Virus record (IMG/VR): IMGVR_UViG_3300048904_000049
Coordinates: 1 to 34,969 of that record
From: a virus
Reading direction: 5' to 3' (one strand)
Length of the DNA stretch: 34,969 nt
A model generated the notes under the pieces. The model did not search any database. It was not told the origin of the DNA and saw nothing but the letters and a program-made list of their open reading frames with translations. Below, one piece after another: positions 2,659-34,969 of the stretch. Every line of letters starts with the position of its first letter. Within the stretch, counting starts at the first letter, position 1. Both the position numbers and the translations under genes were made by a program.

Positions 2659-3231
2659 TTAGGCGAGGCCCATCGCTTTCTTGCCAGCAGAATAGAGGGC
2701 GAGGCGTTCGGAGTAGCCGTTCGGTGTCTTCGTCGAGTTCGGATTGCCGAGATTCACGGCGCGCGATACGCCGTCAAACCGGCCAGCGTCGGCGAGTTTG
2801 TTCAGATCGCGGTTGTCCCAATACCATCCGGCAGACATAGCGGCGTTATCCGGCTGCGCGAGCAATTCCGGGTGATCGACCAGAGGAAGATTCAGCGCGA
2901 GACTGCAGATGGCGTAGTTAGCCTTTCCCGTGATCTGAATAAGTCCGCGGCCCTTGTACTTGGCTCCATCGCCAGGATCAGTGTTGCCGAGCGATTTGGC
3001 TTTGTCCGATGGGGGCTCGTATGCCTGTTGCTCGAGTGTTGGGCCCCATAGCTCAGTGAGGAAGCACAAACGGCCAGACTCGACGCCGACCGTTGCCAGA
3101 AACGCAGCGATGCGGAGAGGCGTGTTGATGAAGTAGCGGTCGCAGGCGGATTGGAGCGGGGCAACCCAAGCCGAGGCGCGCAGGATTGTGGACCCACAGC
3201 CAGCCGAAACGATTGAGGCATTGAGTTGCAT
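2659..3231 (-). CDS. Endolysin, glycoside hydrolase family 19 (chitinase-like)
   Basis: This 190-residue enzyme has the GH19 signature. The first catalytic Glu lies in ATVGVESGRL (E51) and the second acid is probably E60 in CFLTELWGP. The substrate-cleft motif YKGRGLIQITGKANY follows near residues 92-106, and a WYWDNRDLN/LNKLAD segment covers the C-terminal lobe. GH19 phage enzymes cleave the N-acetylglucosamine/muramic acid backbone of peptidoglycan to release progeny. GGAG lies six bases before the ATG. There is no signal peptide, so access to the wall needs a holin. The membrane-anchored coiled-coil gene sits 17 bases upstream in the same unit. Confidence 0.92.
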   Translation of the reverse strand: MQLNASIVSAGCGSTILRASAWVAPLQSACDRYFINTPLRIAAFLATVGVESGRLCFLTELWGPTLEQQAYEPPSDKAKSLGNTDPGDGAKYKGRGLIQITGKANYAICSLALNLPLVDHPELLAQPDNAAMSAGWYWDNRDLNKLADAGRFDGVSRAVNLGNPNSTKTPNGYSERLALYSAGKKAMGLA

Positions 3232-3248
3232 GGCGGCTCCAGAGGGGA

Positions 3249-3521
3249 TTACTTGTCGGCCTTCGATTCAAGACGGCGATCGAACTTCTCATCCATTTGC
3301 TCGAGCTTTGCAAAGACGGCATTGATCGACTCACTAAGCCGATCAATCGCCTTCTCAAGGGCGCTTGATGTGACAAAGGTCTTAGCCGCTTCCAGCTTGA
3401 ATGCAGCCAGTTCCTTCTCATTCGCCTCGACACGTGCAACGAGACTTCGGAGCATCCAGAAAGCAACTGCGCCTACTCCAGACGCAACTGCGCCGCCTAC
3501 GTAAAGGACCGTGTTGTCCAT
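3249..3521 (-). CDS. Single-TM coiled-coil protein of the lysis module
   Basis: This 90-residue protein has one membrane helix at about residues 5-27 (LYVGGAVASGVGAVAFWML). The remainder is charged heptad-like sequence (VEANEKELAAFKLEAAK and AIDRLSESINAVFAKLEQM) predicting a long coiled coil. GGGG precedes the ATG. Its place immediately before the endolysin suggests a holin-like or lysis-accessory role, and no other classical two- or three-TM holin or Rz/Rz1 pair is visible nearby. The topology also fits generic membrane-tethered phage proteins of unknown function, so the holin assignment is inference. Confidence 0.75.
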   Translation of the reverse strand: MDNTVLYVGGAVASGVGAVAFWMLRSLVARVEANEKELAAFKLEAAKTFVTSSALEKAIDRLSESINAVFAKLEQMDEKFDRRLESKADK

Positions 3522-3533
3522 TGATGCCCCGTT

Positions 3534-3560
3534 AAAACGAAAAGCCCGCGCGTGGCGGGC
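3534..3560 (-). terminator. Intrinsic terminator/attenuator before the lysis genes
   Basis: On the minus strand a GCCCGC/GCGGGC stem is followed by TTTTCGTTTT. It sits between the regulatory gap and the ATG at 3521, so any minus-strand transcript starting in the gap must pass it. Confidence 0.75.
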
Positions 3561-3826
3561 AGGTTGGTTGGTCGTGTTTTGGTTAATCCGGGCCGGTCGT
3601 GCAGCACGGTTCGCGGCCCACCGTCAGAGCCTTATCTGATAAGGCTTTGCGCGGTTTTTAAGGGGTAAAAATGCAGCTTGGCGGACCACCGTCGGTGCAC
3701 GAATGCTGCACGCGATGGAATCCTTGCCAGATAAGGCTCGCAGAGATTTGAATGGGCGAAAATGGCGATTTTGTGCACGCCGGATGCGCGTCGCCGGGGC
3801 GGGCGCGAAGTGTCGCTATTTAGTTG
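3561..3826. promoter_or_regulatory. Intergenic control region with repeats (no gene seen)
   Basis: No credible protein is seen between the lysis genes (minus) and the regulator (plus). The region holds a perfect inverted repeat AGCCTTATCTGATAAGGCT (3628-3646), a third copy of its half-site GATAAGGCT at 3730-3738, a direct repeat CGG(C/A)CCACCGTC at about 3614 and 3682, and an inverted repeat GTGCA-N7-TGCAC (3695-3711). This looks like an operator array for divergent control, but the binding proteins are unknown. Confidence 0.55.
3628..3646. repeat. Perfect 9-bp inverted repeat, possible operator
   Basis: AGCCTTATC-T-GATAAGGCT is palindromic around one central base. A partial copy of one arm recurs at 3730-3738. 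The single-base centre favours a dimeric protein site over an RNA hairpin. Confidence 0.6.
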
Positions 3827-3855
3827 TTGACATATGTTCCTTTAAGGAACATAGT
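3827..3855 (+). promoter_or_regulatory. Sigma70-type promoter with palindromic operator in the spacer
   Basis: A perfect -35 box TTGACA (3827-3832) is separated by 17 bp from CATAGT (3850-3855), a 4/6 match to the -10 consensus. The spacer region is a perfect palindrome with 10-bp arms, TATGTTCCTT-T-AAGGAACATA (3833-3853). A dimer bound here would block RNA polymerase, so this is probably the repressed promoter of the plus-strand cassette. The adjacent XRE-like protein is a candidate ligand. Confidence 0.75.
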
Positions 3856-3954
3856 AGAGCCGTTGGGTACGCAGACCTGCGACAACCCGCTACTCCGAAA
3901 GGATGACTACCGTGAGAACCACATTTCGCGTGCACGCGTTGCACGGCATCGTCA

Positions 3955-4215
3955 ATGACCATCCAATACGAAGCACCGACGCCGCAGGACATGCGCAACC
4001 TCAAGGACCGTCTCGGTTACTCGGGGAAGCAAATGGCCGACCTGTTCGGGCTTGCCAGCTCGCAGCAATGGCACAAGTACTGCGGGGGCAACGAGCCGCG
4101 GGAAATGAGCCTGCCGATGCTGTTTCTGGCGATGGCACTTCTGAATCGATCGGCTACGGTCGAGCAAGTATTCGACTTGTGTCGTCAGGTCGGGGCCAAA
4201 ATAGAAGAAGACTAG
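3955..4215 (+). CDS. Small XRE-like HTH transcriptional regulator
   Basis: This 86-residue protein carries a helix-turn-helix of XRE/Cro type at about residues 9-45: DMRNLKDRLGYSGKQMADLF is helices 1-2, then SSQQWHKYCGG is a recognition-helix region. The C-terminal helix is LFLAMALLNRSATVEQVFDL. An upstream stop in this frame rules out a much longer form. The ATG has a weak ribosome site, while a strong GAAAGG lies further up in front of ATG/GTG codons of another frame that overlaps this start. It is the first gene behind the palindromic promoter, so autoregulation or control of the cassette and lysis genes is likely. It is too short to carry a cleavable CI-type domain. Confidence 0.75.
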   Translation: MTIQYEAPTPQDMRNLKDRLGYSGKQMADLFGLASSQQWHKYCGGNEPREMSLPMLFLAMALLNRSATVEQVFDLCRQVGAKIEED

Positions 4216-4288
4216 GCTGCACCGTCTGGCGTGCGGTCAGAAGACGCGCACCTGAGCGTCAATGCACCTCTTCTATGCGGGGTGCGCG

Positions 4289-4846
4289 ATGAAAATCATC
4301 TATACCCGCAAAGGAGAGGAAATCTTCGTCGACGACGAGGATTACGAGCGGCTTAATCAGCACACCTGGTGGCTTGACAAGGATGGTTATGCCGTTCGCG
4401 GCATACCGCACCCGATTGAGGGGCGGCCAAGAACCAAGTCAAGAATGCACCGAGAAGTGATGGGGCTTGGGTTTGGAGACCCACGCGAGGTAGATCATCG
4501 CTTCGGCATACGGACGGACAACAGGAAATCCGAACTGCGTGTTTGCGCGAGAGGCCAGAACAAGCTGAACCGCGCAGGGTCCTCGAAAAGTTTATCGGGA
4601 CTCAAGGGCGTTAAATGGAAGCCACGGAAAAAGAGATGGGAGGCTTACATTCAGCTGAACCGCAAAAGGACATATCTCGGTTCATTTGCCACAGCTGAGG
4701 AGGCCCACGAGGCGTATTGCAAAGCTGCTCCGATTATCCACGGAGAATTTGCCAATACTGCCGTCGATTCCGCTCCTGGGCATTCAAAGTCACAGAACGA
4801 ACTGGCAGTCATCGCGCCCATGGTGAAGGCGCAGATAGGGGAATAA
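4289..4846 (+). CDS. HNH-AP2 homing endonuclease
   Basis: This 185-residue protein starts most plausibly at the second Met (MKIIYTRKGEEIFVDDEDYE), the usual start of this family; an ATG 27 bases earlier is also open. The HNH part shows MHREVMG, VDHRFG and NRKSELRVC, the counterparts of the common VDHxxGN and NRxxNLR motifs, with a Gly-Asn region that has drifted to FGIRTDN. Residues about 113-160 form an AP2 DNA-binding domain (GVKWKPRKKRWEAYIQLN, then YLGSFATAEEAHEAY). Such free-standing enzymes cut cognate alleles and spread their own gene. It ends two bases before the start of the beta-barrel gene. Drift at the HNH core leaves activity uncertain. Confidence 0.88.
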   Translation: MKIIYTRKGEEIFVDDEDYERLNQHTWWLDKDGYAVRGIPHPIEGRPRTKSRMHREVMGLGFGDPREVDHRFGIRTDNRKSELRVCARGQNKLNRAGSSKSLSGLKGVKWKPRKKRWEAYIQLNRKRTYLGSFATAEEAHEAYCKAAPIIHGEFANTAVDSAPGHSKSQNELAVIAPMVKAQIGE

Positions 4847-23506: not shown

Positions 23507-24358
23507 TTAGACTTTGCGAACTTGGGCGTTGGGGAAGCGATCCGCGAAGCCTTGCGGACGGCTGTCGGCAGCAATACGCGGCTGCACGACGGTGCCCGGC
23601 TTCGGTTGGGCCTGGAGGATGGCGCGGAAGGCGCTCGGATGAACGTCCGAAATGTCGACGCCCATCGTCTCGAGCGCGGTCTTGTAAACCGTCTCGGCGC
23701 TGTCGGCGGCGATAGCCAGCTTGCCGACCCACGGTTGAACCGCAGTTTCGGCATCAGCGATATCGCGCATGCGCTTCACGGCTGCGGCTTCAGCGTTCTT
23801 GACGGCGGATTTAATCGCCGCATCCATTGCAGGCTTGCTTACCACGTCATCGTCCTTTTTCGGTGCGGCTGCGGTAGCCGGGGCAGCGGGAGCGCCCGCG
23901 GTCGGGGGAGGGGTATCCATTGCCGGCTTTTCTTCCGGCTTCGCTTCTGGCTTTTCTTCCTCGTCGCCAGCGATCTTCAGGCCGCGCAGCTTGCCTTCTA
24001 TGGCGCTGTAATCGTCGTCGCTGATCTTGCCTTTCAGCATCGAGCAGATTTCATCGACCGGGCTTGCATCCACTGCACCGACTTCCGGCGCCGCCATGTC
24101 GTCATCAAGACCAACGTTGTCGTCTGCGCTGTCCAGGCTGTCGAGCAGCGAGACCAGGCCTTCGAGGTCCGCATCTGCAGCCAGCTTCGGCTTGATCGCA
24201 GCGACGATGCCAGCTTTCTTGGTCAGCCAGTTCGCGGCCGTGATGCCGGCAAGGATGGGGTTAAGTTCCAACTTTGCATCGGCGGCCAGCTTCGGCTTGG
24301 CGGCCAGCAGGGCCCCCTTCGCCAGCGCTGCCTTCCGAGAAAGGGGCTTCTTGCTCAT
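23507..24358 (-). CDS. Putative separate scaffold from an internal start
   Basis: Inside the protease gene an in-frame ATG at 24358 (Met362, MSKKPLSRKAALAKG) is preceded by GGAGAAG and a six-base spacer, a much better ribosome site than that of the full gene. It would yield a 283-residue protein equal to the scaffold region. In lambda, Nu3 scaffold is likewise made from an internal start in the protease gene C, so this arrangement is plausible. The product would outnumber the protease fusion and be digested during maturation. This is inference from the ribosome site and domain boundary. Confidence 0.65.
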   Translation of the reverse strand: MSKKPLSRKAALAKGALLAAKPKLAADAKLELNPILAGITAANWLTKKAGIVAAIKPKLAADADLEGLVSLLDSLDSADDNVGLDDDMAAPEVGAVDASPVDEICSMLKGKISDDDYSAIEGKLRGLKIAGDEEEKPEAKPEEKPAMDTPPPTAGAPAAPATAAAPKKDDDVVSKPAMDAAIKSAVKNAEAAAVKRMRDIADAETAVQPWVGKLAIAADSAETVYKTALETMGVDISDVHPSAFRAILQAQPKPGTVVQPRIAADSRPQGFADRFPNAQVRKV

Positions 24359-25441
24359 GTTTTGCTTCTCCAAAGGTTTGCTGTCGCCTACGACGACATC
24401 AGGACCAGCGCGGCCAGCGGCTACCAGTGCGACGTGATTGCCGCGGATATCACGCATGACCCCATCGAAATGGGTGCCCTGGTAGGTTCCGGGCGTCATA
24501 TCTGCCCGATAGTGGTAAGCGCAGGAGATTTCCTTGCGCTCTTCGTTTTCGATGTTCTGGATAGACTTGGCATCCCAGATCACCAGACTGTTTCGCAGGT
24601 AGGGCGCTTTAAATTCAGCGTCCGTGCCCGTACTGCCAACGACGATTTCCTTGCGCGGATCGGATGCGAAGACCGGGATATGCTCCTTGCCGGTCTGCTC
24701 GTATGCGTCGATCAGCGGAATGTTGTTGAACGTCGGCGCCGCTTTCTCGAGTTCGTCGGGATCGCGAAGCAGCATGTAGACCTTGGACGGGTCAAGTCCT
24801 AGCGCCTCGCCGTCAGGTATTTCATTTCCCTGATATGGATTGACTGCCGCCTTGCTGATGTTGCTGACCTCGACATGCAGGCGTCCGTCCTGATCGGTCC
24901 GACGCACGGTGCCGCGATCGAAGGCGAGACGGTTTGAGGCATTCATTCTTGCGTCCATTGCGATTCGGGATAGAGCGGCTTTGACGCCGGGGTGCGTCGG
25001 CTCTGGTGGGGCGTTTGTCGGTGCCCACATGTAATCGGTGTGTTCGTCGTTGAGCGTAGGCGTGAAGCGCTCTGGCACATCCTGACGGAACGTCGTGAAA
25101 TCGACGCCTTCGTCACTCACCAGGTGTGCGAGTAGCTTTGCCTCGCCATCCGGAGCGCTGCCGATTTCCTCAGATGCCTCGCGACGGGCGGCGTCCTGTG
25201 CGGTTTCGCCATCTTCAATACCGCCGCCGGGCAGACACCATTCGCCAGGGTGATCGCCGTCGTTTCCGCGCTTGAGAAATAGCGCATAGCCATCGGGGGC
25301 TACGAACAGCGTGCCAGCGGCCTTGACCGCTGCATCCGCATTGACAAACTCCTTACCAACTGACTCCGGGATGCCGAGCGTGCCATGCCCGTGCGCTGCG
25401 GCTTCCATGGCACGTCGCTGTCTCTCACTTGTCGCGGGCAT
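23507..25441 (-). CDS. Nudix domain fused to DUF2213-like prohead protease and scaffold
   Basis: This 644-residue fusion has four parts. Residues 1-33 are a short motif with SERQRRAMEAAAHGHGTLGI, like small DUF3008-type tags. Residues 40-150 are a Nudix hydrolase with a complete box G73-x5-E79-x7-REASEEIG (73-95). Residues about 165-360 match DUF2213 prohead proteases (VEVSNISKAAVNPYQGNEIP, YMLLRDPDELEKAAPTFNNI, IENEERKEISCAYHYRADMT, GVMRDIRGNHVALVAAGRAG); the GNHVALV and SCAYHY segments are candidate catalytic His and Ser. Residues 362-644 are acidic, Ala/Pro/Lys-rich scaffold with two KPKLAADA repeats. The Nudix substrate is unknown. Confidence 0.9.
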   Translation of the reverse strand: MPATSERQRRAMEAAAHGHGTLGIPESVGKEFVNADAAVKAAGTLFVAPDGYALFLKRGNDGDHPGEWCLPGGGIEDGETAQDAARREASEEIGSAPDGEAKLLAHLVSDEGVDFTTFRQDVPERFTPTLNDEHTDYMWAPTNAPPEPTHPGVKAALSRIAMDARMNASNRLAFDRGTVRRTDQDGRLHVEVSNISKAAVNPYQGNEIPDGEALGLDPSKVYMLLRDPDELEKAAPTFNNIPLIDAYEQTGKEHIPVFASDPRKEIVVGSTGTDAEFKAPYLRNSLVIWDAKSIQNIENEERKEISCAYHYRADMTPGTYQGTHFDGVMRDIRGNHVALVAAGRAGPDVVVGDSKPLEKQNMSKKPLSRKAALAKGALLAAKPKLAADAKLELNPILAGITAANWLTKKAGIVAAIKPKLAADADLEGLVSLLDSLDSADDNVGLDDDMAAPEVGAVDASPVDEICSMLKGKISDDDYSAIEGKLRGLKIAGDEEEKPEAKPEEKPAMDTPPPTAGAPAAPATAAAPKKDDDVVSKPAMDAAIKSAVKNAEAAAVKRMRDIADAETAVQPWVGKLAIAADSAETVYKTALETMGVDISDVHPSAFRAILQAQPKPGTVVQPRIAADSRPQGFADRFPNAQVRKV

Positions 25442-28858: not shown

Positions 28859-30256
28859 TCAGGCTTGGGAAAGGGCGTCGTCGGAAATGCGCATTGGCGC
28901 GCGGTCAATCAAATGAGAGAAGGCTCGAGACAATCCGTCGACCTGGTCGTCATGCGCCCCATTTGGGAACATACGCAGCTCATCCACGAATGCCTGGTTC
29001 CACTCGCCGCGCAGCATCAGGACATTGCCAACGTTAATTTGTGCCGCCACTGGTTCAGCACGCGTCACCTTGTCGCCAGATTCGGGCGAACTGGTGACCT
29101 GATAGCCAGCCAGGGCACGCGTTAGATAAAGAACTTGGGTCTTGCCAGCCTGGCCTGGGTCTTGCGGAATACTGATTCGCACTCGCTGGCCATCGCGCGC
29201 CGCAGTATTGACGAGTGCTGCATCACGTTCATCCGGACCAGCCCGAAGTCTCGTTACATCTCCAACAATGAACCGCCCATCAGCCAGGCGTCCAAGCTTC
29301 GGTCCGGCAGTCCAGTCGCCATCGGTCGTACTTGCCAGATCCCATCCGCGCACCCAATCGATGTAACCGGCTGGAAGTGCGTCAACAACCTGTATCTGGT
29401 CGGGCTTGAAGATTCCGCCCTCAGCCGGCGCCGGTCTTTGCTGATACTGTCCAGCGAACGTATAGGGCGATGCCGCTTCCATGCGGCGCAGTTCTTCGAT
29501 GCTGTGCTTTTCAGGCCAAAGTGCCGTGCCGTCATCCTGCAGGGCGGGGAGACAGACATGCTCCCATTTCTCGCCGTTTCCGCCAGCCAGCAACCAGCCA
29601 GCCAGATCGCTCTCATGCAACCGCTGCATGATGAGGATGATCGGCGTGTCAGGTGAGTTTTTACGGGATTCGAACGTGGTCTGGAACCAGTCAATCACGT
29701 TCTGGCGCATCACATCGGATCGCGCCTCGTCCGCCTTGTGGGGATCGTCGATCAGCAGTGCGCCGCCGAATCCTGGCCGATGCTTGCCAGCGCCATAGCC
29801 GGTAATCGTGCCTTCAGAGCCAACCGCGTAGACGATACCACCCGCGGTCGTGCGCCATTCGTCCTTGGCCTGACTATCGTTCCGAAGCATGACGCCAGGA
29901 AAGATCGCCTGATACTCAGGCTCTTGAATCAGCCCGCGCACGTCCCAAGAGGAAGCGGCAGCCAACCGGCCAGAATACGAGGTGTAAATGAACTCGCTGT
30001 CAGGCGCATGGCCCAGCGACCATCCAACGAAATTCTTGACAATCTCCGTCTTGGAATATCGCGGCGGGATATTGATGATCAGCCGTTTGCATTCGCCCCG
30101 GAACACGCGCATCAGGGCGTCGCAGACCAGCGCATGATGCCCGGCCTGCTGCCACGTATATCCGCGGCGATTGACGAACATCCAACGCGTGAACCAGTAC
30201 AGGTCGGCCATCGACAGCGAGCGATAAGCCCGGCGCTCAGTGTCGGTAAATTCCAT
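28859..30256 (-). CDS. terL: Terminase large subunit
   Basis: This 465-residue packaging motor has an ATPase domain with a Walker-A-like PPRYSKTE (residues 64-71, the variant common in this class), Walker B ALLIDDPHK (about 166-174) and the coupling motif MQRLHESD (210-217). The RNase-H-like nuclease domain shows RGWDLAST with Asp306, SIPQDPGQAGK (362-372) and HDDQVDG (435-441), giving the usual acidic triad. It binds the portal and TerS, translocates DNA and cuts concatemers. Order TerS-TerL-portal is canonical. No truncation is seen. Confidence 0.96.
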   Translation of the reverse strand: MEFTDTERRAYRSLSMADLYWFTRWMFVNRRGYTWQQAGHHALVCDALMRVFRGECKRLIINIPPRYSKTEIVKNFVGWSLGHAPDSEFIYTSYSGRLAAASSWDVRGLIQEPEYQAIFPGVMLRNDSQAKDEWRTTAGGIVYAVGSEGTITGYGAGKHRPGFGGALLIDDPHKADEARSDVMRQNVIDWFQTTFESRKNSPDTPIILIMQRLHESDLAGWLLAGGNGEKWEHVCLPALQDDGTALWPEKHSIEELRRMEAASPYTFAGQYQQRPAPAEGGIFKPDQIQVVDALPAGYIDWVRGWDLASTTDGDWTAGPKLGRLADGRFIVGDVTRLRAGPDERDAALVNTAARDGQRVRISIPQDPGQAGKTQVLYLTRALAGYQVTSSPESGDKVTRAEPVAAQINVGNVLMLRGEWNQAFVDELRMFPNGAHDDQVDGLSRAFSHLIDRAPMRISDDALSQA

Positions 30257-30260
30257 GGCC

Positions 30261-30923
30261 TTATACCTTCGGGGCGGCTGCGCTCTCCCTCAATACCTGT
30301 TGGATCTCAGCCAGCGTGGCTGACGGTGCGTTATTGACAATGACAGACGGTTGGGCGGGAGTGGGCGCCTCGTCGGCCAGACCGTAAGCCTCGCGCTCCA
30401 ATCCGATCAGCGTCTTGAGCGTGTCGGCCAGCTTCTTCATACTGTCCACCCGACCAGCGCTAGATATGACTTTCTGGTACAGGTCGTTACGCTTGTCGCT
30501 GCCCTTATCGTCTTCGGAGCGGAGTATTTCGCCCAACTCCTGGAACAGCGCGAGGTTGTCCGTCTCCGTTTCCAGTTCGGCCAGCAACGACATCGCGAGA
30601 GTTCTGGCGCGCCCAATATCCTTGCGCTGGGTGATCTGTACGCCGGCGACAGCCTCGCTGTTAATCGCGACGATCTCTTTCTCGGAGTACGCGCTTTCGG
30701 TGCGTACTGAACTGCGTACCAGCTCCTTGCGTACCAGTTCGGCGGCCTTTGCCTGCACCTTTCCGGCGAGGTCGCGCGCCCACTCGTCGCGCTTTGCCCG
30801 CTTCCGGATTGCGCCTTCAGTGATGCCGTGTGCGCTGGCTATTTCCCGGATCGACAACACGCCGGCTCGGTAATCAGCTTCGATGCGCTCCCAGTCCGGC
30901 GCAGGTTTCTTTTCTTGCGCCAT
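30261..30923 (-). CDS. terS: Terminase small subunit
   Basis: This 220-residue protein has an N-terminal HTH (WERIEADYRAGVLSIREIAS, then AHGITEGAIRKRAKRDEWAR), which recognises the packaging start. The middle is a long helical oligomerisation region (RARTLAMSLLAELETETDNL, VISSAGRVDSMKKLADTLKT). The C-terminal tail is Pro/Ala-rich and would reach TerL. It ends four bases before TerL. The HTH type (Sigma-70 region-4-like IREIASAHGITEGAIRK) is common in small terminases of Burkholderiales phages. The pac or cos site cannot be identified. Confidence 0.92.
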   Translation of the reverse strand: MAQEKKPAPDWERIEADYRAGVLSIREIASAHGITEGAIRKRAKRDEWARDLAGKVQAKAAELVRKELVRSSVRTESAYSEKEIVAINSEAVAGVQITQRKDIGRARTLAMSLLAELETETDNLALFQELGEILRSEDDKGSDKRNDLYQKVISSAGRVDSMKKLADTLKTLIGLEREAYGLADEAPTPAQPSVIVNNAPSATLAEIQQVLRESAAAPKV

Positions 30924-31382: not shown

Positions 31383-32072
31383 CTACGCAGCGATCAGATC
31401 CTTGCGTCGCCCGCGGTGTGGGTCGGCTGTCAGGGCGTCTTCGAGAGGCATGCCAGAGCGCTTAAGCCGATTTCGCAGCGTCGCTGGGTTTAGCCCATAT
31501 TCGCGGGCCCAGTCGTTGATGTGCTGGGTCTTGCCGAATGCCGTCAAGGGCTGGGCTCCGCTTTTCGCCAACATCAATTCGCGCTGCAACGTGCGCGTTT
31601 CCTCGGTGCGCTTCAGCCCCTTGGTTTTCGCTACACGCTTGGCGATCGTTTCGGCGGATTGAACCTTGCCAGTGAGCGTCGCAGCGATACGCTTCCGGGC
31701 CTCATCCGTTAATGTGCGGCCTTTTTGCGCGACGCTCATTTTCAGGCGCGACGCTTCGCTGTATTTGAGTCCGATATTGCTGCCGGCGACCGGAGCCTTG
31801 TTGTATCCCTTGGCCCAGTCCGACGACGAGTGAGCGTCAATGTGGCGCTGCTCGGCCTCCACTAGCATGGCGTTCGGCACGTCACTTTCCAGAATCTCAA
31901 ATACGAAATTCTGTTCTCCGTGCGCAAGCCATGCACGCTGGAGGTGTTCGTTCTTGTGCCGATTGGAGCGGAGTTCCCACAGATGGCGCGACTTCCGTTT
32001 CTCGAAATTGACAGCCTGGCCGATATAGGCCTTGCCATCGACAAGATTGCGAATCCTGTAGATTGTTCCCAT
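31383..32072 (-). CDS. GIY-YIG homing endonuclease
   Basis: This 229-residue protein has the GIY-YIG nuclease at residues 1-90: GTIYRIRNLVDGKAYIGQAV (TIY and YIG elements), then catalytic-type Arg/His in KRKSRHLWELRSNRH, and a conserved Glu in MLVEAEQRHID. Residues about 100-165 carry NUMOD3-like repeats (KYSEASRLKMSVAQKGR and TDEARKRIAATLTGK), and the C-terminus has an HTH (HINDWAREYGLNPATLRNRL). This is the standard layout of free-standing Seg-type enzymes that cut DNA lacking the element and copy themselves in. A strongly structured 96-base leader precedes it. Confidence 0.92.
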   Translation of the reverse strand: MGTIYRIRNLVDGKAYIGQAVNFEKRKSRHLWELRSNRHKNEHLQRAWLAHGEQNFVFEILESDVPNAMLVEAEQRHIDAHSSSDWAKGYNKAPVAGSNIGLKYSEASRLKMSVAQKGRTLTDEARKRIAATLTGKVQSAETIAKRVAKTKGLKRTEETRTLQRELMLAKSGAQPLTAFGKTQHINDWAREYGLNPATLRNRLKRSGMPLEDALTADPHRGRRKDLIAA

Positions 32073-32168
32073 CTTCTGCCTTGACTAGAGGCGACCGTTT
32101 GAGGAGGCACGGCAGGCGGGCGGTCAAACCCGCTTTTCTCTCCGTCGAGATAGCCGTGCGCCTATATT
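32073..32168 (-). promoter_or_regulatory. Structured leader of the homing endonuclease gene
   Basis: Between the phosphoesterase stop and the GIY-YIG ATG the transcript can fold. GCACGGC (about 32156-32150) pairs with GCCGTGC (about 32117-32111), and inside it GCGGG pairs with CCCGC. This might limit translation or end read-through; no U-tract directly follows. The role is inferred. Confidence 0.4.
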
Positions 32169-33329
32169 TTACGCTGCTTCGAACATCTCGGGGCAAACGA
32201 TCGTACGACCTACCTGCCCATATTTTTCGTGGTACGTGATGAGCGATGCCGCGCGCTCCGAGATCCAACCGCCGCGGGATGAGTGCGCGTCTCGAGCGGC
32301 CAGCGTCGGATGTTGCGTGACCGTCATGCCGGCGTATTCTTTCTCGTCGACGTGGTGTCGGTGCCCGCAATGGGCGTAACGCTTCACAGTGTTTCCCCAC
32401 ATCTTGGGGAACTGCGCGGCGAACAACATCGGCAACTGTTCGTTGGAAACTTTGTGCCCGTGGTGAAAGGCGAGCATCACCTCGCCATGCTGGTGAACAT
32501 AGAACGGGAGTTCCGAGTCATTCACCGTCAGGCGCGTCTCATTCTCAAGCAGCGCGGCGAACATGTGCCGCAGCCATAGCGAGCCCGATTCGTCGTGGTT
32601 GCCCTCGCAGATGATCAGATGCACCGCTTGGTGTTTAGTCAAGGCATGACTGATCAGCCGACGAAGAACGCGGATTGCCGCGGCGACGATCTTGGAGAAC
32701 CGTCCGTCTGTGTCCAGGACGTTTTTGTGTGCCGGCGTCAGCGGCAAAAGCCCATCGCTATGCAGGAAGTCACCTTGAATCGTCAGCACGCATGTGGCGG
32801 CCTGGGGCGCGGCTTCGACCATGTGGACGAAACTCGCGAGCAACAGGTTTTCGGCTATCTTCAGATCCCAATCAGCGCCGCCTTCACGATGCCAGCTCAA
32901 CTGGCCCATGTGGTAATCGGTGAAAACTATCAGGTTGCACAGCGCGGCGTCGATCTTCGCAGGAGGCGCAACGGCGCTCACGCGCGGCAAAGTCTCGGCG
33001 AATGCCGCGGCGGCCGCCTCGAATATCTCGCGCTGCCTGTCGTGGTCAATCTGATTCTTGACCCATTGGCCAGCAACTACGCCATCCTTGTTGATGTACG
33101 TCGATGTGCCGCGCAGAAAGAATCCATCGGGAACTGGGCGCGTCATGTCACATTCGGGCGCGTAACCCATCCTGGCCGCTTTCTTCTTCGCCGCGGCAAC
33201 CAGGTCGCCAACCGTGCCGTGAGCCAAGCCCAGCGCTTCCGCTGCGGCCCGCTGTGTCCCATGCTCCTCGACTGCCTTGAGGATTTCCGCCTGTCGCGGA
33301 GTGCAGTATTCGAGAAGCTTTGGATCCAC
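32169..33329 (-). CDS. wHTH-metallophosphoesterase (calcineurin-like)
   Basis: This 386-residue protein begins with a winged-HTH-like region (CTPRQAEILKAVEEHGTQRA with EALGLAHGTVGDLVAAAKKK). From about residue 130 it is a calcineurin-like phosphoesterase with all metal motifs: DYH (138-140), GD (186-187), GNHDE (243-247), HHGH (289-292) and GHRHH (322-326). The fold is shared with Mre11/SbcD-type nucleases and phosphodiesterases, so DNA end processing or nucleotide hydrolysis is plausible. The N-terminal HTH suggests DNA targeting. It is in the same minus transcript as the metallopeptidase-like gene and the terminase genes. The substrate is unknown. Confidence 0.9.
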   Translation of the reverse strand: MDPKLLEYCTPRQAEILKAVEEHGTQRAAAEALGLAHGTVGDLVAAAKKKAARMGYAPECDMTRPVPDGFFLRGTSTYINKDGVVAGQWVKNQIDHDRQREIFEAAAAAFAETLPRVSAVAPPAKIDAALCNLIVFTDYHMGQLSWHREGGADWDLKIAENLLLASFVHMVEAAPQAATCVLTIQGDFLHSDGLLPLTPAHKNVLDTDGRFSKIVAAAIRVLRRLISHALTKHQAVHLIICEGNHDESGSLWLRHMFAALLENETRLTVNDSELPFYVHQHGEVMLAFHHGHKVSNEQLPMLFAAQFPKMWGNTVKRYAHCGHRHHVDEKEYAGMTVTQHPTLAARDAHSSRGGWISERAASLITYHEKYGQVGRTIVCPEMFEAA

Positions 33330-33338
33330 GGTTTCCCC

Positions 33339-33743
33339 TTATGAACGCAATTTTGGTTGTTTAGCCGTCGCCGCCTGAAAGACCGGAAACGTCTCGCGGA
33401 ACAGCCAAGAGAGCAAATATGTATGCGCCTCGTTCGCGCCACCGTCCTCGAGCGGTATTCCTACATCGCCCAGGATATGAAACGTCGTGTGATCCAGCTC
33501 GTGCAGGAACGTATCTGCGGCGCCGTCAAATACACCGATCACATACGTGCGGCCTTCGCTGTTCAGATACCGTATGGCTAGCCCTTTGCACCCTTCAGTG
33601 TCGGGGTCGCCCTCGTACATCAAGGCGATACCGGCCCACTCTTCGCGGGTTACGCACAGCAATACTTTCCCGTTGTAGATCGGAATCTGGAACAGCGGTA
33701 TGTATGCGTACTCGACCGGCTCAGCTTTGGGTTTGCGAGCCAT
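33339..33743 (-). CDS. HExxH metallopeptidase-like protein
   Basis: The start is at 33743 (MARKPKAEPVEYAYIPLFQI); an earlier ATG at 33755 lies next to a terminator U-tract. The 134-residue protein has a zinc motif HELDH at residues 81-85 within DTFLHELDHTTFHILGDVG, then NEAHTYLLSWLF (104-115), whose Glu is positioned like the third ligand of gluzincin-type peptidases. Similar compact HExxH plus NEAxxYL proteins occur in phages without known substrate. There is no signal peptide. It is the first gene after the candidate RNA and its terminator. Confidence 0.75.
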   Translation of the reverse strand: MARKPKAEPVEYAYIPLFQIPIYNGKVLLCVTREEWAGIALMYEGDPDTEGCKGLAIRYLNSEGRTYVIGVFDGAADTFLHELDHTTFHILGDVGIPLEDGGANEAHTYLLSWLFRETFPVFQAATAKQPKLRS

Positions 33744-33756
33744 CGATCGCACCATC

Positions 33757-33783
33757 AAATAAAAACGCCCGCACTCGGCGGGC
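33757..33783 (-). terminator. Intrinsic terminator closing the candidate RNA
   Basis: On the minus strand GCCCGC/GCGGGC with loop CGAGT is followed by GTTTTTATTT. It follows the 666-base non-coding stretch and precedes the metallopeptidase-like start. Confidence 0.87.
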
Positions 33784-34199
33784 AAATCGTCGTGAAGTGA
33801 CGAGGGGATTTGTGGTGAAGGCTCGACGCCAGTCCGCATGGGCGCATACCCCGCAATCGCGGCGCGCGACCGTTTGTGTTGCCTTCGTGGATGGATACGG
33901 CCAAGCCCTCGGGAAGGATCTGCTAACTAGGTCCCGGGCCTACAGCGATCCTCTGTCGCCATATCCACTCATGAAGGCGCTGGGTACGGGTTCCAGCATC
34001 CGGCCTATCTTCCGGTCGATTTCGCTGCGCCACGTTTAAGGCGCAGACTCAAGCCCCTGACGGGTACTCGGTGAGAGCGGGCGGATTGCCTCCCCGCCAT
34101 GCCAGTTCGCCACCGGAGCTACCGGCTGCTTATGGCTCTGGGCGCGATCAAAGACCTTTCGGCTAGCGCCACGGCTACATAGTGTTGTTTCGCCCTCGT

Positions 34200-34280
34200 G
34201 CATGGCGGATGGGACCTCTATCCCCATCGACCTGCGGGTTTTAGCCCGCCGCTCTCTCTGGTTTCTGAGCTACGCCATGC
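34200..34280 (-). ncRNA. tRNA-like cloverleaf inside the large RNA
   Basis: On the minus strand an acceptor-like stem GCATGGCG/CGCCATGC encloses three arms in tRNA order: TA-GCTC...GAGC (D-like arm with the box-A-like TAGCTCAG), GCGGG-CTAAAA-CCCGC (anticodon-like arm) and ATGGG...CCCAT (T-like arm). It departs from a working tRNA: the anticodon-like loop has six bases, the T-loop lacks TTCGANT, the D-loop lacks GG and no CCA is encoded. It may be a degenerate tRNA, an RNA structural mimic or a processing signal. Confidence 0.5.
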
Positions 34281-34449
34281 ATGAAAGCCCGCGTTTCGTG
34301 CGGCCCCGGCTTGCCCCGCAAATGCGGCAAGCACCGAATTGCATGCCCTTTCGGGTCTTAGCCGATTACATTCACGGCCATGGAGTTCGTCGCGTACGTT
34401 TTCCACCCGCCGTACGCCTTTCCCGTACACGCTGCGGCAAGCGTACAAG

Positions 34450-34557
34450 TCACTCGTCGCCTTCCATCTGCTCGGCGGCATCCATCAGGACTTTGCTGGC
34501 ACCGAGAAACATCGTCGACCACCAGAGCGTCCATACTGTTAGCGGATTCAGTCCCAT
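34450..34557 (-). CDS. 35-residue overlapping hydrophobic protein
   Basis: The ATG at 34557 overlaps the stop of the previous gene as TGATG, a typical coupling arrangement. The 35 codons read MGLNPLTVWTLWWSTMFLGA followed by SKVLMDAAEQMEGDE: a Trp-rich hydrophobic segment and then an acidic helical tail, which looks like a real small membrane-associated or capsid-associated peptide. No family is recognised. The candidate RNA begins right after its stop, so 34449 is used as the RNA 5' limit. Confidence 0.65.
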   Translation of the reverse strand: MGLNPLTVWTLWWSTMFLGASKVLMDAAEQMEGDE

Positions 34558-34676
34558 CAGAGCATCCGTCGAAGTTCGTCTAACCGTGCAATCAATGACG
34601 CCAACAGCGCCGCATCCAGATTACGGACGCGCGAAATGTCGGCTTCGATGCTGTCTATTACTTGCTGGGCGTTCAT
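34557..34676 (-). CDS. 39-residue helical protein
   Basis: The ATG at 34676 has GGAAAG six bases upstream. The 39 codons (NAQQVIDSIEADISRVRNLD then ALLASLIARLDELRRML) form one heptad-patterned helix, suggesting an oligomer or a protein-binding peptide. Its stop overlaps the following 35-residue gene. A CTCTCCGGAGAG palindrome lies 17 bases upstream of the start. The function is unknown; the amphipathic pattern and ribosome site argue for a real gene. Confidence 0.6.
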   Translation of the reverse strand: MNAQQVIDSIEADISRVRNLDAALLASLIARLDELRRML

Positions 34677-34741
34677 AAATTCTTTCCGGAAACTCTCCGG
34701 AGAGAGCCGTATTGCGCGGCATGCTGCGGGCTTGGTGCGAC

Positions 34742-34942
34742 TCAAGACCTTCCGAGTCGCGGCGGGAGGTCAAACAATGCTTCTGCGGCCTTACGCGCCT
34801 CACTCCAGCCTTCGCGGACATGGAGTGTGCGGCGCTTCTCGGCGCGCTTCTGCTCATTGGCTTGGCGATTCTGCTCCCGCTCCACTAGATCCATCGGGTT
34901 CACGCCGAACGTGCGCGATTCGAATGTGATTGAGCGAGCCAT
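34742..34942 (-). CDS. Small basic protein near the window edge
   Basis: An ATG at 34942 opens 66 codons: ARSITFESRTFGVNPMDLVE, then a charged helix REQNRQANEQKRAEKRRTLH and SEARKAAEALFDLPPRLG. It follows a partial terminator-like hairpin and has no strong ribosome site. The highly charged Arg/Lys/Glu helix suggests a nucleic-acid or protein-binding function. The pattern FxSRTFGVNPMDLVxRE looks conserved but I cannot name the family. Confidence 0.6.
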   Translation of the reverse strand: MARSITFESRTFGVNPMDLVEREQNRQANEQKRAEKRRTLHVREGWSEARKAAEALFDLPPRLGRS

Positions 34943-34949
34943 GGGAGCC

Positions 34950-34969
34950 AAAAGAAAAAAGCCCCGCAT
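34950..34969 (-). terminator. Partial terminator cut by the window edge
   Basis: On the minus strand the visible 3' arm GCGGGGC is followed by TTTTTTCTTTT. The other arm would lie outside the window. The layout matches the other terminators here. Confidence 0.55.

Follow-up and report, generated by a model that had tools for sequence, protein, structure and literature searches.

A modular structured RNA with tRNA-like arms, absent from Rfam, at the head of the late region of a Burkholderiales-type phage

The minus strand of positions 33757-34449 in the IMG/VR virus record IMGVR_UViG_3300048904_000049 (hereafter the window, the whole stretch of 34969 bases that was analysed) is, judging from comparative evidence, a genuine structured RNA without protein homology. 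It is a large folded RNA built of interchangeable parts, including real or remodelled tRNAs. We consider it probable, though by no means assured, that this modular structured RNA is expressed late, acts in trans and represents a class that Rfam lacks. The boundaries proposed by the original prediction were correct. The 3' end is the terminator, and the 5' end was set by the end of the upstream ORF rather than by a mapped transcription start: the segment abuts the stop codon (TGA, 34450-34452) of a small ORF, and a search for a sigma-70-like promoter of the window RNA found none. None of the ORFs crossing 33757-34449 on the minus strand had a PHROG match, so that a protein-coding reading was rejected and the earlier view that the segment has no credible ORF was borne out. 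The parts of the RNA, from 5' to 3', and the genes that follow it are listed below.

33757-34449, minus strand: whole structured RNA segment, 5' end at the upstream ORF end, 3' end at the terminator
34392-34447, minus strand: two 5' hairpins (UGUACGC..GCGUGUACGG; GCGUACG..CGUACGC), folding weak (z -0.28)
34289-34386, minus strand: 5' block (ACUCCAUGGCCGU..AAUUCGGUGCUUGCCG) with hairpin CCGCACGAAACGCGG
34273-34287, minus strand: strand (1) of unit 1, CUUUCAUG, and arm base
34201-34279, minus strand: arm of unit 1, tRNA-derived element aligning with the tRNA-Ile arm of relative L038 (z -5.58)
34073-34197, minus strand: core of unit 1, strand (2) GAGGG to strand (3) CUCUC (z -0.32)
33979-34069, minus strand: linker (GAGUACCC..CUUGAGUCUG; AAAUCGACCGGAAGAUAGGCCGG; GCUGG-AACCCGUAC-CCAGC), last two hairpins covarying in 14 sequences
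33968-33978, minus strand: strand (1) of unit 2, GCCUUCAUGAG
33887-33968, minus strand: arm of unit 2 (z -2.61), inner ~60 nt 98% identical in relative L047
33811-33886, minus strand: conserved core of unit 2, strand (2) GAAGGC to strand (3) GCCUUC, with helices P1, P2, GAUN-loop hairpin P3 and short P4 (model R1, 69.9 bits)
33783-33807, minus strand: small hairpin CUCGUC..GACGA between core and terminator
33758-33784, minus strand: intrinsic terminator TGCCCGC-CGAGT-GCGGGCG TTTTTATT, stem 33784-33766 and T-run
33339-33743, minus strand: first downstream gene, phrog_1365 (unknown function)
32169-33329, minus strand: phrog_704 DNA repair exonuclease / metallophosphoesterase
31383-32072: GIY-YIG homing endonuclease gene, after the exonuclease
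30261-30923: TerS
28859-30256: TerL

The folding energy of the whole segment was moderately better than that of 20 shuffles (z -2.10). When pieces were folded separately, the signal was concentrated in the tRNA-like arm (-5.58), the terminator (-3.25), the unit-2 arm (-2.61) and the linker (-2.02), whereas the 5' domain (-0.28) and both cores (-0.32 and -0.64) were near chance. Energy alone is insufficient to settle the structure, because the whole-segment value is modest and most other pieces are near chance. GAAA-type loops, which had been noted earlier, are present (CCCGAAAGGG and GCCGAAAGGU). The decisive support for a structured RNA is comparative, namely compensatory changes in the 3' core and the linker.

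Relatives were gathered through the neighbouring genes, phrog_1365 (L002-L007) and the phrog_704 exonuclease (L013-L076). Direct blastn of the whole window RNA against phages and plasmids gave no match, and single-module queries were needed; these demonstrated that the RNA is a mosaic in which short blocks are common to different phages and their order varies. The 5' block at 34289-34386, for example, shares its first part with L058, L066 and L014/L020. An alignment of the 3' core (A1) contained 39 distinct sequences from phages and prophages; homology and a DNA pattern had picked them out of 36 IMG/VR stretches and two Paraburkholderia genomes. Two pattern matches in Deltaproteobacteria MAG sequence (L112 and L113), which had neither the (1)/(3) strands nor an arm, were dropped as chance. 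A genome search found the 3' core in 3 of 399 Burkholderiaceae genomes. Across helices P1-P4, 97.7% of the cells in A1 are paired and 12 pairs are changed on both sides, with 119 cells changed on both sides compared with 31 in shuffles. The covariation was 0.510, against 0.181 in shuffled alignments and at most 0.098 with slid partners, controls that ignore kinship. Compensatory base changes among homologues, on which the earlier proposal depended, were therefore found. An RNAalifold consensus of A1, made independently, was nearly identical to the P1-P4 model, and the last two linker hairpins (A3, 14 sequences) covaried at 0.400 versus 0.104, again with kinship ignored. An alternative 3' core carried by L007, L015, L066 and others also has a consensus fold, with three pairs changed on both sides. 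For the core of unit 1 (34073-34197), a close homologue of the interior was sought and none was found, and, folded by itself, this piece gave no signal.

Model R1, built from A1, scores the window at 69.9 bits, the window sequence itself being part of the training alignment, and in the window this match is preceded by an arm helix and followed by a terminator, the combination by which we provisionally define the class. An intrinsic terminator lies within 150 nt after the core in 21 of 38 relatives' loci but in only 4 of 380 random control windows, and the predicted terminator of the window RNA (stem 33784-33766 and T-run, z -3.25) held up. A pyrimidine motif, UCUCCUC, recurs just 5' of the terminator in relatives (for example L003 3923-3932, L058, L066 and L078); it is complementary to Shine-Dalgarno sequences and its window counterpart is CCCCUC.

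We compared the RNA with known families. Rfam 15 yielded nothing at 33757-34449, either at gathering thresholds over the whole window or at E<=1 on the minus strand of 33300-34969; the window strand had no covariance-model match to GOLLD, ROOL or pRNA at E<=1, and the Rfam group I intron, group II intron and tmRNA families did not match the window RNA. The lack of any Rfam match indicates that it is none of these. In sets of 12, 9, 7 and 6 relatives, Rfam reported only tRNA, one permuted tmRNA (in phage PHB04) and sub-threshold noise, and int-alpA elsewhere in the window. A resemblance of GAGGAAAGCUCCGG to RNase P was dropped as sequence likeness only, without an Rfam match. Literature searches by sequence string and keywords returned no earlier description; subscription journals were outside their coverage, and a prior account is possible. 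The RNA would thus far stand as a class of its own, separate from GOLLD and ROOL, within the large structured phage RNAs and not in Rfam. A large structured RNA outside the known classes in a Burkholderiales-type phage had been anticipated, and the covariation, the terminator, the missing Rfam match and the occurrence in Paraburkholderia prophages and Burkholderia phage CSP3 agree with it. The two-unit mosaic, the tRNA-derived arm and the spread to gammaproteobacterial phages had been overlooked.

In the architecture of a unit, a hairpin linker is followed by strand (1), an arm, strand (2), a core, strand (3) and the terminator, and strand (2) is complementary to both strand (1) and strand (3). 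The window RNA consists of two units, with strands CUUUC / GAGGG / CUCUC in unit 1 and CCUUC / GAAGG / CCUUC in unit 2. The (1)/(2) arm helix scored 35.6 with its own upstream sequence versus 22.3 +/- 4.5 with foreign upstreams, and the (2)/(3) pairing is helix P1 of the core alignment. Comparison shows each unit to be an arm helix on (1)/(2) joined to a core closed by (2)/(3). Since strand (2) is unable to pair with both partners at once, it may alternate between two states or pair between molecules, giving oligomers.

The second option touches on the kinship with GOLLD and ROOL suggested by the original prediction. GOLLD is described in PMC12286853 as a phage RNA of unknown function near tRNA islands, with a conserved 3' portion, a variable 5' portion and a tRNA in the linker. 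The class described here is similar in its conserved 3' and variable 5' portions, its tRNAs inside or adjacent and its phage setting near tRNA islands, as judged from the relatives; it differs from GOLLD in repeating a (1)-arm-(2)-core-(3) unit whose cores can be exchanged and in its host phages of Proteobacteria. ROOL is likewise a phage or prophage RNA near tRNA islands with a complex fold, but there is no covariance-model match, and arm swapping is not among its features in the descriptions available. The kinship thus stands for the GOLLD-like habit and fails for covariance models of both families. A homo-oligomeric cage or complex of the GOLLD/ROOL kind, held together by (2)/(3) or (1)/(2) pairing between molecules, would suit this shared habit, and a strand with two complementary partners could exchange between molecules. 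We regard such a complex as a minority possibility, given that neither sequence nor covariance models relate the RNA to GOLLD or ROOL and that single-unit members measure merely ~160-400 nt. It is compatible with a trans-acting modular RNA, of which it would specify the physical form.

The arms of the relatives were examined for tRNAs. ARAGORN or the Rfam tRNA model recognised a tRNA in L007, L034, L037, L038 and L039, including a tRNA-Ile within the arm of L038 and a tRNA-Trp within the arm of L037, but neither detected a cloverleaf in the window. Aligned with the L038 tRNA arm, the unit-1 arm of the window has neither the D-loop GG nor the T-loop UUCGA, and its anticodon loop is altered; it is a tRNA that has lost its D- and T-loop signatures and kept its fold. 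The L040 arm lacks the entire anticodon arm. The unit-1 arm shares 95-96% identity with arms of L066 and L025, and this remodelled form recurs in L066, L025, L007, L039 and L083, on different cores and in either unit. The inner part of the unit-2 arm, 98% identical in L047, has a different closing stem there and its unit lies elsewhere in the genome. The presence of such arms on different cores and closing stems in different phages amounts to domain swapping. Sequence comparison demonstrates that arms and cores have been exchanged between phages, the arms being tRNAs, remodelled tRNAs or plain hairpins.

Like phage tRNA arrays, then, the class has some arms that are tRNAs or tRNA-derived; unlike them, it sets the arms in a conserved non-tRNA chassis, and the window arm has no D/T-loop signatures. 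One might still see the segment as a graveyard or processing precursor of a tRNA array, where decaying tRNA genes and spacers have kept their folding and chiefly carry and release functional tRNAs, since tRNA genes are common in the island (nine in L038) and several arms are damaged tRNAs. We find this improbable. The non-tRNA cores and linkers keep their helices through compensatory changes in 14-39 sequences, and many members have no tRNA at all while architecture and terminator remain constant. The nine tRNA genes of L038 lie in one island at 2804-4569, and one of the nine sits within a unit's arm.

Downstream of the RNA, the genes are ordered phrog_1365, exonuclease, GIY-YIG, TerS and TerL. 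In phages without the phrog_704 exonuclease, the 3' core lies ~1-4 kb upstream of the terminases wherever the neighbours could be identified as such, and the downstream TerL families differ (phrog_38, phrog_15 and phrog_2). These arrangements show that the predicted RNA heads the late/packaging region in unrelated phages. The phi29 pRNA, which also lies upstream of terminase genes, is part of the packaging motor. The earlier analogy with packaging RNAs therefore retains its positional basis, at the head of packaging operons with unrelated terminases, but not its mechanistic one: there is no pRNA match in Rfam, and contact with packaging proteins has no support in this class. Several other features were noticed in these regions. 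An int-alpA RNA (RF02996, 51.4 bits) occupies 32095-32160 on the minus strand of the window, directly 5' of the GIY-YIG gene and between the exonuclease and TerS. HNH-like ORFs lie between the core and the phrog_1365 gene in L004 (~3430-3910) and L038 (~3900-4370), and an unrelated ORF is inserted at the same gap in L002. The head maturation protease (DUF2213) of the window, at 23507-25441 on the minus strand, has a fused N-terminal NUDIX domain.

Another module, X (GGUGAAUGCGCAGGCUGAUGCGC ... GCCGGAGAUCAGCACCGGCCACC), forms the unit-1 core of the close relative L066 and of Burkholderia phage CSP3; X occurs in at least 120 IMG/VR stretches. A 161-nt X query gave matches, many of them partial, to 397 INPHARED records at E<=1, of which 197 passed E<=0.01; it also matched 687 plasmid records and 1284 of 5426 E. 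coli genomes at E<=0.1. The closing stem of X covaries, positions 4-8 being paired in 78% versus 55% when shuffled (maximum 62%), and of 133 loci 50 have strand (1) upstream of X, where 8.8 would be expected (maximum 17). The relatives could form a loop-loop pairing, GCUGAU/AUCAGC, in nearly invariant sequence; a second scan for variants of this kissing loop returned mostly AGACUGAU and chance matches. The X-type architecture is found in HK620, phage P1, many Klebsiella and E. coli phages and Burkholderia phage CSP3, and the X hairpin was absent from the CPS-53 prophage of E. coli K-12. HK620 has the X core in its late leader, between pR'/qut and the tQ terminator. Phage P1 has two tandem units after tRNA-Asn and tRNA-Thr (CACAAC / GUUGUGAUG / CAUCACAAC), and the arm of the first bears a T-arm. 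In lambda, the triple CACAAC / GUUGUGCUG / CAGCACAAC lies between tR' and S, in a segment at about 44785-44944 of NC_001416, and a lambda isolate has a 44-nt arm stretch 95.5% identical to that of a Klebsiella phage member. When the lambda leader and phage P1 were each shuffled 300 times, any such triple arose in 2 of the shuffles in either case, and the extra pairs vary (CUG/CAG, AUG/CAU, GUG/CAC), as expected of compensatory change. Lambda therefore apparently carries the same architecture with another core, although the link between the window and lambda is drawn from shared modules and architecture, with no end-to-end sequence homology. The lambda element is distinct from the sRNA PreS, which lies between ea10 and ral.

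The HK620 and lambda elements lie in the same late leader transcript region as the lambdoid late leader RNAs (pR'-tR', lambda 6S RNA); the lambda element is not 6S RNA itself, as it lies 3' of tR'. This placement bears on whether the RNA acts in cis. Put-type antiterminator RNA of phage HK022 acts in cis, the polymerase then ignoring terminators, and the window RNA could similarly control its own late operon as an attenuator or put-like polymerase modifier with the terminator as control point. That the RNA heads the late/packaging operon in unrelated phages and lies between qut and tQ in HK620 and between tR' and S in lambda is equally compatible with a cis role, and a strand (2) with two mutually exclusive partners is reminiscent of a riboregulator. 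Relatives of the class, however, also occur outside late leaders, in Jedunavirus, Taipeivirus and IME207, upstream of yfdP on a plasmid and after tRNAs in phage P1, which favours action in trans; moreover, the lambda element is 3' of tR', and embedded tRNAs and tandem units would be superfluous for a leader. A cis-acting leader thus seems rather unlikely to us.

Most likely, the window RNA is a trans-acting scaffold RNA with a GOLLD-like habit that belongs to a separate class, a function that we infer. Its transcription would fall early in the late programme and its release at its own terminator; from then on it would serve in trans as a stable scaffold on which exchangeable tRNA-like arms are displayed. 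Rapid swapping, together with a fold kept while decoding features are lost, suggests that the arms are perhaps recognised as shapes. Tentatively, host factors that bind or cut tRNAs may dock on them or be drawn to them as decoys, which would fit better than translation. Equally tentative is the larger picture of an ancient modular superfamily of phage RNAs, hitherto unrecognised, from Burkholderiales phages to lambda and phage P1. During the lytic cycle its three-strand chassis would hold out rapidly exchanged arms that mimic tRNAs and serve as docking sites or as counter-defence baits; by analogy, such a chassis might evolve by arm exchange, as tail fibres do. If the trans-acting class is real, it adds one more to the few large structured phage RNAs such as GOLLD and ROOL, its exchangeable tRNA-like arms could be seen as the trace of an arms race, and the late leader of the best-studied phage would contain a structured element that Rfam has so far not listed. 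Because there are apparent members in lambda, HK620 and phage P1, its function, unlike that of GOLLD or ROOL, could be tested at once in laboratory E. coli.

Two further RNAs were observed among the relatives. Bordetella phage vB_BbrM_PHB04 (L119, 3245-3616) carries a permuted tmRNA (RF04321, 104.5 bits; tag ANDDYIRAAA) inside an RNA island with tRNA-Met, tRNA-Asn, tRNA-Pro and a GAGGAAAGC linker module. Klebsiella phage Magnus (L251, 1196-1358) has a weak alpha_tmRNA match of 24.7 bits, below gathering, near its X-core RNA.
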